Positions 39,671-42,832 of a DNA stretch of 64,000 bases are shown here, piece after piece (the stretch's first letter is position 1; each line of letters starts with the position of its first letter). A program made the position numbers and the translations under genes. Under the pieces are notes generated by a model. It made no database searches. It was not told the DNA's origin and saw only the letters and a list, made by a program, of their open reading frames with translations. Origin of the DNA: Bdellovibrio sp. ZAP7 (GTDB lineage Bacteria; Bdellovibrionota; Bdellovibrionia; Bdellovibrionales; Bdellovibrionaceae); assembly GCF_006874645.1 (NCBI RefSeq), contig NZ_CP030082.1, positions 1,984,001 to 2,048,000 of the forward strand, in the 5' to 3' direction.

Positions 39671-39738
39671 GTTGACAGCCCAAGCTCTATGATTCAGGTA
39701 TTTGAAGGTACATTCACCATCGTCAACTAGGTAAAATA

Positions 39739-40656
39739 ATGGCAAAAATCGTTAAAAAGAAGCCCGCAGCAAAGACACCAGCAAAACCGGCCAAAAAAGC
39801 CCCAGTAAAAGCTGCGTCAAAACCTGCACCTAAAAAAGCAGCTCCGAAAACTGTTGTTAAGAAGAAGGTTGAAAAAGCTCCTGTAAAGGCTGCTCCCAAA
39901 AAACCGGAAGTTAAGAAAAAGGTCGAAGCTAAGGTTGAGCCTAAGGCAAAAGTTCCTGCGAAGTCCGTGAAGGAAGTCAAAGAGACGAAAGCCGAAGTTG
40001 CAAAAAAAGAGAAAGTCGAAAAAAAGGCTGCTGCCGCTCCAGCTCCTGAAAAAGCTGTTGCTCCTAAAAAAGAGGCGAAAGCCGCTAAAAAAGGTGCAAA
40101 AGGCAAAGGCAAAGAAAAAGACGACTCTGAAATGGATGATGATTTTATCGCCGATGACGACATGATGGGCGATGAGATCGGGGAGTACGAAGAGGAGCTT
40201 AAGGCCGTTGAAGAATCCGAAGAGGAAATCGACGTTGTTGAGGAATGGGCTCCTGAAGATAAAGACAAGTCAGACGAAGAAATCGTACTGACAGATGCTG
40301 AAGGCCGTCGTTACTGCCGCGCTCGTGATTGCGATCAAGTTGCGGTTGTTGATGTGTATTGCCGTTATCACTACCTTTTGTTCTGGAAGAAAATCCAAGT
40401 ACGTAAGAAGATCCTTACGGATGGTAAACTTGAGCGTTACGTTGAGGAATTGACGTCACGTTACCCAGATAAGTTCCTTGAGATGATCCGTCGCGATTTG
40501 CGTACTGAGAAGGATTTCTTGGCTGCTATCCAGGAGCTAGAGATTGACGAATCAGCAGCAGAGAACGAGTTTGAAGAAGATACGAATGCGTTTATCGAAG
40601 AAGTACGCGGCATGGGGGACTCCGGCGGGAATGCGTCGGACGACGACGAGTACTAA
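39739..40656 (+). CDS. Tripartite histone-H1-like protein with acidic linker and Cys/His cluster
   Basis: The 305-residue protein has three parts. Residues 1-130 are almost only Lys, Ala, Pro, Val and Glu (KKPAAKTPAKPAKKAPVKAA), like eukaryotic H1 tails and bacterial histone-H1-like proteins. Residues about 133-190 are highly acidic (DDSEMDDDFIADDDMM, KAVEESEEEIDVVEE). Residues about 195-305 form a folded domain that includes YCRARDCDQVAVVDVYCRYH, three Cys and a His that could bind zinc, then helices (RKKILTDGKLERYVEELTSRYPDKFLEMIRRDLRTEKDFLAAI) and a Ser/Asp tail. The start has AGG upstream. I cannot name a family for the third part; DNA or RNA binding is inferred from the tail. Confidence 0.7.
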   Translation: MAKIVKKKPAAKTPAKPAKKAPVKAASKPAPKKAAPKTVVKKKVEKAPVKAAPKKPEVKKKVEAKVEPKAKVPAKSVKEVKETKAEVAKKEKVEKKAAAAPAPEKAVAPKKEAKAAKKGAKGKGKEKDDSEMDDDFIADDDMMGDEIGEYEEELKAVEESEEEIDVVEEWAPEDKDKSDEEIVLTDAEGRRYCRARDCDQVAVVDVYCRYHYLLFWKKIQVRKKILTDGKLERYVEELTSRYPDKFLEMIRRDLRTEKDFLAAIQELEIDESAAENEFEEDTNAFIEEVRGMGDSGGNASDDDEY

Positions 40657-40666
40657 TAGTCTCGTC

Positions 40667-40766
40667 GCACGTCGGTAAATCCGATTTACCTGCGTTGCTT
40701 CGTCGTCGGCGTACGAGGAGTACGCCTTCCTCCTAGCGCCTTGTTAAATCGAATTTATCGACATGC
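40667..40766 (+). repeat. Structured palindromic element
   Basis: The outer arms at 40667-40682 and 40751-40766 pair over about 14 of 16 positions (one G-U). Between them lies a perfect hairpin, GGCGTAC at 40708-40714 with GTACGCC at 40720-40726. Each outer arm also contains its own small palindrome (GGTAAAT/ATTTACC and TAAAT/ATTTA). The GC-rich middle differs from the AT-rich flanks. Such an element could be a REP-like repeat or a structured RNA; no copy exists elsewhere in the window. Confidence 0.5.
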
Positions 40767-40801
40767 TTGGTTCCCGGAGCGCGTTTTTGGGAATAGAATT
40801 G

Positions 40802-40831
40802 AAGCCTCACTTTTTAGTGGGGCTTTTTTTT
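40802..40831 (+). terminator. Intrinsic terminator after the histone-like gene
   Basis: AAGCCTCACT pairs with AGTGGGGCTT around TTTT (one T-G pair) and ends in T8. It lies 146 bases past the stop of the 39739 gene, after the palindromic element, so that element would be on the transcript's 3' end. Confidence 0.8.
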
Positions 40832-42169: not shown

Positions 42170-42199
42170 AAAAAAAGCTCCCTAGTGGAGCTTTTTTTT
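42170..42199. terminator. Bidirectional terminator
   Basis: AAAAAAAGCTCC and GGAGCTTTTTTT pair around CTAGT, with T runs on both strands. It serves the 41729 gene and the convergent 42182 gene, whose last codons lie within it. Confidence 0.88.
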
Positions 42200-42832
42200 A
42201 TTCCCGCTAAACATCTTCGGGCCTTTTCCGTCGTCATCTTCAGAGTCTTCGGTGTCCTCTTCTGATTCTTCATAGTCCTCATCGTCTTCGTCGCGTGGAG
42301 GGCTCAGCTCTTCGCTTTTTTCGGCTCTGGAAAGAGCATCTTCTGATTCCGACTCTTCGTAAATCATAGCATCATCGTCGACGCCCAAAAGCTTGTTTGC
42401 TTCGGCTTCCAGATTTGAATTTTCTGTGGAGTATTGAAGATACAGTTTTTTGCCTTGGAATGGAAATTCCTGCCACACGTAAGGGAAATCAACTTCGCCT
42501 TCTTTTTCAAAGTATTCCATCATCATGGATGCAGCTGCATCCACGCAGTTGTGAATACGAGAAAGGGCGTCTTGTTGTTCTTGGGAGTAGTTCATTGAAA
42601 CTTCGAAGTTTGCTTGCGCCAAGCGACCTTGCTCGTGGTATCCAACGCGTAGCACAATTTCTTCGGTGTAGATACGACCTTCGATAATCAGTTCAGCCTC
42701 ATCAAGGTATTGAGCGAAATTCTCGTTGAACACCGTCTGAATTTGATCTGAGTACTCTTTGGGAAAATTAGTCCATTTTTTGGAACTTTTCAGTCTTGGA
42801 TTCATAGAGAGGGGCTCCTCGAACTTTGACAT
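42182..42832 (-). CDS. Uncharacterised cytoplasmic protein with acidic C-terminal tail
   Basis: I do not recognise this 216-residue protein. Residues 10-150 are a mixed alpha/beta domain (FNENFAQYLDEAELIIEGRIYTEEIVLRVGYHEQGRLAQANFEVSM, then YSTENSNLEAEANKLLG). From about residue 158 the sequence is almost all Glu, Asp and Ser (EEDTEDSEDDDGKG), followed by a short basic end (SGNKKKLH). No signal or membrane segment. It is divergent from miaB, and its tail gene end is inside a terminator. Confidence 0.7.
   Translation of the reverse strand: MSKFEEPLSMNPRLKSSKKWTNFPKEYSDQIQTVFNENFAQYLDEAELIIEGRIYTEEIVLRVGYHEQGRLAQANFEVSMNYSQEQQDALSRIHNCVDAAASMMMEYFEKEGEVDFPYVWQEFPFQGKKLYLQYSTENSNLEAEANKLLGVDDDAMIYEESESEDALSRAEKSEELSPPRDEDDEDYEESEEDTEDSEDDDGKGPKMFSGNKKKLH

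Follow-up and report, generated by a model that had tools for sequence, protein, structure and literature searches.

Architecture of the H1-tailed gene

We analyzed a 64,000 nucleotide stretch of DNA from Bdellovibrio sp. ZAP7 (contig NZ_CP030082.1, positions 1,984,001 to 2,048,000 of the forward strand), called the window here, and concentrated on one gene whose product joins a basic tail reminiscent of histone H1 to a small Cys/His core. The gene is an open reading frame (ORF) which starts with ATG and encodes 305 amino acids (Table 1). A preliminary description of this DNA had listed a basic tail, an acidic linker and the motifs YCRARDC and VYCRYH, all of which we find in the ORF. That description had overlooked the acidic C-tail, whose conservation extends more widely than that of the linker which it had stressed.

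The composition of the segments is strongly biased. Lysine (35%), alanine (23%) and proline (12%) dominate the first 128 residues, and by this composition together with its strong positive charge the tail would fall under the loose definition of H1-like bacterial proteins. Aspartate and glutamate make up 52% of the linker that follows (residues 129–182), and the core (residues 183–270) is close to neutral with a net charge of +1. A search of open-access papers turned up no publication on this gene.

Table 1. Features of the H1-tailed gene and its surroundings (window positions; net charges from segment composition).
Feature	Position	Strand	Remarks
Putative ribosome-binding motif CTAGGT (contains AGG), 7 nt before the ATG	39727..39732	+	predicted from the sequence
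Coding sequence, 305 aa: H1-like tail, acidic linker, CCCH zinc-knuckle/helical core, acidic C-tail	39739..40656	+	single copy in own genome
Basic K/A/P-rich tail, residues 1-128	39739..40122	+	net +32
Acidic linker, residues 129-182	40123..40284	+	net -25; in part of Bdellovibrionales
Putative zinc knuckle CX4CX9CX2H (C193, C198, C208, H211)	40315..40371	+	invariant in 30 relatives; A20-like in the model; phage HNH-type match
Conserved helical part of the core, residues 212-270	40372..40548	+	W216 and P243 invariant in the alignment; helices in the structure model
Acidic C-tail, residues 271-305	40549..40653	+	net -12
Dispersed repeat directly behind the gene	40685..40748	+	15 genome matches, this copy included
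Putative terminator-like hairpin, 11 pairs and T run	40801..40826	+	number of hits no higher than expected by chance
Convergent neighbour, 216 aa, uncharacterised family, acidic C-terminus	42182..42832	-	family found across the phylum

The Cys/His core

The C-terminal part of the protein (40285–40653) has a single match in its own 4.12-Mb genome and is present in 59 of 60 close relatives, the exception being a genome which is only 88% complete. A profile built from Bdellovibrionales-type sequences (alignment A1) detects the core in 332 of the 369 phylum genomes; among the 235 good genomes (completeness of 90% or more, contamination of 5% or less) 231 have it. The great majority of the genomes carry one copy. 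A broader profile added one more genome, matched over the knuckle only. When all sequenced species were scanned for near-exact peptides of the window protein, 42 contigs were matched; their labels name Bdellovibrionota or groups within it and in a few cases broader units (Proteobacteria, Deltaproteobacteria), and the record labelled Deltaproteobacteria (L058) places inside the Bdellovibrionales in a tree of the core. Beyond the phylum the search consisted of this peptide scan, and homologues may exist in other phyla. These counts make the Cys/His core a core protein of the phylum Bdellovibrionota, encoded by a single-copy gene.

Within the genus the ratio of nonsynonymous to synonymous substitution rates (dN/dS) of the core is 0.00–0.055 where dS is unsaturated, and by this measure the core is under strong purifying selection. 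Because of these low ratios and the near-complete presence among the good genomes we do not regard the architecture as a product of chance. Measured against the ribosomal genes of its own genome, the gene has a codon adaptation of 0.624, a value which exceeds those of 96% of the 50 ORFs sampled and overlaps the low end of the ribosomal genes themselves (0.579–0.779); even without the K, A, P and E codons the gene is at the 90th percentile. For the neighbouring miaB and the convergent gene the value is 0.542. Since its codon usage resembles that of ribosomal genes, the H1-tailed protein is probably well expressed.

A multiple sequence alignment of 30 Bdellovibrionales-type sequences (A1) contains 27 invariant positions, among them the four ligands of the knuckle as well as W34 and P61 (domain numbering). 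Across the whole phylum (alignment A2, 36 sequences) no variation was seen at C11, C16, C26, R27, Y30 and W34, and conservation at H29 is at least 90%. Except in one relative (L104) there are four conserved ligands, which in the model have the geometry of a knuckle as expected of a zinc protein. The cautious suggestion of the preliminary description that the Cys/His set may be a zinc site gains support from these CCCH ligands and from a modelled knuckle which superposes on A20-type zinc fingers.

Its view that the domain is of unknown family was likewise borne out: neither the whole protein nor the core nor the two alignments gave a significant family when searched against Pfam, NCBIfam and the PDB sequences. 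A match of the whole protein to a sigma factor model (NF004560, E 7e-6, far below its cut-off) was set aside as a match of composition, spanning residues 7–199 and thereby only the tail, the linker and the start of the core. By tblastn we found no real homologue in phages or plasmids, and the five pattern matches from a scan of IMG/VR with A2 were all unrelated. As far as the searched libraries go, the core domain is named by none of them, and the architecture around it is of a known kind.

More distant similarity was seen for the knuckle. Weak matches to the PHROG HNH-endonuclease families 5351 and 1271 were obtained for 30 and 26, respectively, of the 36 sequences in A2 (best E 1.6e-4), mainly over 24–50 residues of the knuckle with some matches extending into the helical part. 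A first structure model from 30 sequences with the C-tail included reached a predicted local distance difference test (pLDDT) score of 59.6; trimming the core of its C-tail and using 43 sequences gave a model with a mean pLDDT of 75.6, in which the knuckle scores 84–87 and the helices 46–78. The top PDB matches of the trimmed model in Foldseek are the A20 ZF7 structures 3vux, 3vuy and 3vuw (E 0.7–1.7, 27–30 residues, root mean square deviation (rmsd) 1.0–1.6 Å), and VIA-align superposes the model on A20 ZF7 with a Z of 3.8 across 31 residues (rmsd overall 1.0–2.0 Å). Among viral structures HNH endonucleases and endonuclease VII were matched, several of them over 24–26 residues at 0.6–0.8 Å. 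By E-value no structure match reaches significance. Ligand pattern, profile and geometry agree, which argues for a zinc knuckle of the A20-like or HNH type; the resemblance of these roughly 30 residues of the model to A20-type fingers and to phage HNH/endonuclease VII knuckles is of weak significance.

There are also clear differences from both. A20-type zinc fingers have the ligands CCCC in the arrangement CX2-4CX11CX2C. The window knuckle shares with ZF7 the number of ligands, and in the model its geometry over about 30 residues is similar, though at E above 0.5; it has CX4CX9CX2H in place of four cysteines. Moreover the helical half of the core is without counterpart in A20, and bacteria offer no ubiquitin context; a role in ubiquitin binding by analogy was rejected since this context is lacking. 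The phage knuckles share the pattern CX4C...CX2HY over 24–50 residues, whereas the window protein has a helical module where these enzymes have a catalytic nuclease domain.

In small-genome members of family f4 (L128, L119, L123, L132) the cores are strongly diverged or truncated, and several of these genomes are without the convergent family described below. In members of f12 (L109–L112, L115, L116, L125) an extra conserved stretch, roughly DIFxAIxxLxFF, directly precedes the knuckle.

Tails, charge and gene neighbourhood

We compared the parts flanking the core in 71 complete members, counting the window's own genus once. The part N-terminal of the core is 66–296 residues long in 62 of them and shorter than 50 residues in the other 9. 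The short-tail members belong to families f13–f16 and f28, which group weakly in the core tree, a tree of few columns with many forks unresolved. One further relative labelled as having no tail, the sole one within the Bdellovibrionales (L050), is an artefact of the assigned start codon, as its open frame has 299 codons. The H1-like tail, after which the preliminary description named the protein, does not define it, as the length of the tail varies greatly and it is nearly absent in several deep lineages. These tail-less relatives amount to a natural experiment which separates the core from the tail.

Among the tailed members the median net charge of the C-tail is -12, compared with -4 among the tail-less (Mann–Whitney p 1e-7, kinship ignored); for the core the values are 0 and +4, respectively, again with kinship ignored. 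Such values fit acid segments that balance the basic tail and are not proof of it. In the preliminary description it was the linker whose acid–base pairing could control tail binding; the linker occurs only in part of the Bdellovibrionales, and it is the acidic C-tail which fits this idea better.

Similar tails in the same genome were sought with a DNA pattern, and the list given here may be incomplete. The pattern had 52 matches compared with 37 for the reversed control, and for this reason only clustered and a few single matches were followed. A minus-strand ORF of 215 amino acids near G000:C1:3603000 (L159, G000:C1:3600000-3619900) encodes a GroES-like protein (Cpn10, E 5e-24) with an N-terminal H1-like K/A tail of about 110 residues and a weak HC2 match (E 8e-4), and ribosomal protein L21 (E 2e-32; L192, G000:C1:4050500-4054000) carries an H1-like KKAAKKTVAKK tail at its C-terminus. 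In a further protein such a tail is fused to a C-terminal domain of about 70 residues with no Pfam match (L194, G000:C1:3202500-3204500), and in one of about 187 residues (open frame of 203 codons; L190, G000:C1:762500-765000) to a very acidic C-terminus with no folded domain apparent. Finally there is a tail-only peptide of 39 residues, MAKKAAKKATKK..., near 983-1110 of L191. Going by these sequences, H1-like tails recur in this genome as additions to various proteins. Since the tail varies within the family and is present on GroES and L21, the tail alone does not indicate DNA binding.

Downstream of the gene lies the convergent 216-amino acid neighbour, whose family (alignment A4) is present in 295 of 359 phylum genomes. 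In all 38 fetched loci which have a member of this family nearby, it is arranged tail-to-tail with the H1-tailed gene; these pairs span the Bdellovibrionales, f12, f15, f22 and f26, at distances between 4 and 4638 bp. Upstream we find a DUF4097 gene (32 loci) and thiolase/CoA-transferase genes, and downstream a miaB-type gene in the Bdellovibrionales and in f15/f16. Two f28 genomes (L147, L148) have the tail-less gene behind rpsM-rpsK-rpoA-rplQ and before a rluB-like pseudouridine synthase gene and a rimO-like gene, all on one strand, and in the f14 genomes and one f13 genome rplC, encoding L3, lies two to three ORFs downstream of the core gene; these names were taken from reading the sequences and not from family searches. 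This gene order gives leads towards a role in transcription or translation and is not proof of one, as it may simply be inherited.

Possible functions of the protein

The pattern of constraint leads us to infer that the putative zinc core is the old and working part of the protein and that the tail supplies affinity for nucleic acids without specificity. Being nearly neutral and strongly conserved, the core is probably a docking module. The best explanation we can offer, and one which we hold tentatively, is docking of the conserved zinc core on a partner, with the tail acting as its tether to DNA or RNA. It comes near to the suggestion in the preliminary description, plausible in our view, that the protein may link DNA or RNA to another partner. 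The working part would be the C-terminal module of about 88 residues, in which the A20-like CCCH knuckle would hold one zinc ion and cap the helical domain. As its docking partner we would expect a conserved protein or nucleoprotein, most probably one from the transcription or ribosome machinery. Most lineages would have gained a long disordered polycation ahead of the core; this polycation may bind DNA or RNA irrespective of sequence and so raise the local concentration of the core; the acidic linker and the acidic C-tail could act as internal counter-charges and prevent indiscriminate sticking of the tail.

Several observations weigh against this explanation. The relative L104 has an Asp in place of the His ligand. 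The E-values of the structure matches are all poor (0.1–10), and the likeness to zinc fingers therefore rests on the ligand pattern and the geometry. The helical half is without a fold match, which at a pLDDT of 46–78 shows nothing, and the charge comparisons are uncorrected for kinship.

Among known systems the tail is nearest in composition to AlgP and PhaF of Pseudomonas, where a folded helical domain carries a long disordered K/A/P tail (PMC9239181). There, however, the tail is C-terminal, whereas that of the window protein is N-terminal, and AlgP, for which no CCCH motif is described, is set apart from the window core by its description and not by sequence. The nearest working analogy would be CarD of Myxococcus, which together with the zinc-associated CarG provides the case of an unfolded, HMGA/H1-like DNA-binding tail joined to a protein-binding docking domain (PMC4182748). 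The window core and the whole protein are without a CarD_CdnL_TRCF match in Pfam, and the window protein carries its putative zinc site in the same chain. Chlamydial H1-like proteins (HC2/Hc1) likewise have a lysine/alanine-rich tail, but for the window protein no Pfam hit to them was obtained up to an E of 1.

The tail composition, which is like that of AlgP, PhaF and H1, and the CarD precedent could also be taken to mean that the protein is a linker-histone-like compactor of DNA, whose zinc core oligomerises or bridges to the histones HBb/Bd0055 or to RNA polymerase as in CarD; that the knuckle is most like those of phage nucleases acting on DNA would agree with this. The core persists, however, in several lineages in which the tail is nearly gone, and similar tails are found on GroES and L21. 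In addition, besides the histone only Bd1238, a helix-turn-helix protein, has been named as a notably abundant predicted DNA-binding protein of attack-phase nucleoids of B. bacteriovorus (PMC10627809). This mildly opposes a dominant chromatin role in the attack phase, an argument of limited force, since proteins lacking any recognised domain would have escaped the designation DNA-binding. We consider a nucleoid protein of this kind rather unlikely, and somewhat less likely still a factor whose core sits on the ribosome or the rRNA-processing machinery while the tail contacts RNA. For the latter speak the ribosomal gene context in f28, rplC in f14 and f13, the miaB-type gene in the Bdellovibrionales and f15/f16, the tail on L21 of the same genome and the ribosomal-like codon usage. 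Gene order, however, varies by lineage, so that each case may be chance or inheritance, and in the Bdellovibrionales the neighbours are mostly metabolic (thiolase, CoA-transferase).

Much less credit can be given to a tether of granules or compartments in which the core would bind polyphosphate or another body and the tail the nucleoid. AlgP and PhaF, with a helical domain and a KPAA tail, do position granules (PMC9239181), but the core has a conserved CCCH motif which goes unmentioned in the cited description of AlgP, and no granule gene was seen nearby in the loci. Least probable of all appears a phage-type HNH/endonuclease VII remnant retained as a nuclease. Such an origin would account for the weak PHROG HNH matches over the knuckle and for the viral structure matches; these, however, are mostly limited to 24–50 knuckle residues, Pfam gives no HNH hit for the protein, a tblastn search with the window domain yielded no phage homologue, and universal single-copy inheritance is unlike that of a mobile nuclease.

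The observations of the preliminary description and its cautious reading of a possible zinc site in an unknown family have stood, and its emphasis is shifted from tail and linker to the core. Going beyond the docking and tethering explanation, we see as doubtful the wider proposal that the core founds a new zinc-domain family which would be essential and phylum-defining in the transcription, chromatin or translation apparatus of the Bdellovibrionota, received H1-like tails in most lineages and works with the convergent acidic partner family.

It is rare for genes of a phylum to be nearly universal, single-copy and strongly conserved and yet to lack a named family, and those that do are usually part of the central machinery. 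Bdellovibrio, whose chromatin is unusual in being histone-based (PMC10627809), serves as the main model for predation by bacteria. A universal zinc protein with an H1-like tail would, like its convergent partner, be a direct candidate for a part in genome packing, reading or translation between the attack and the growth phase.
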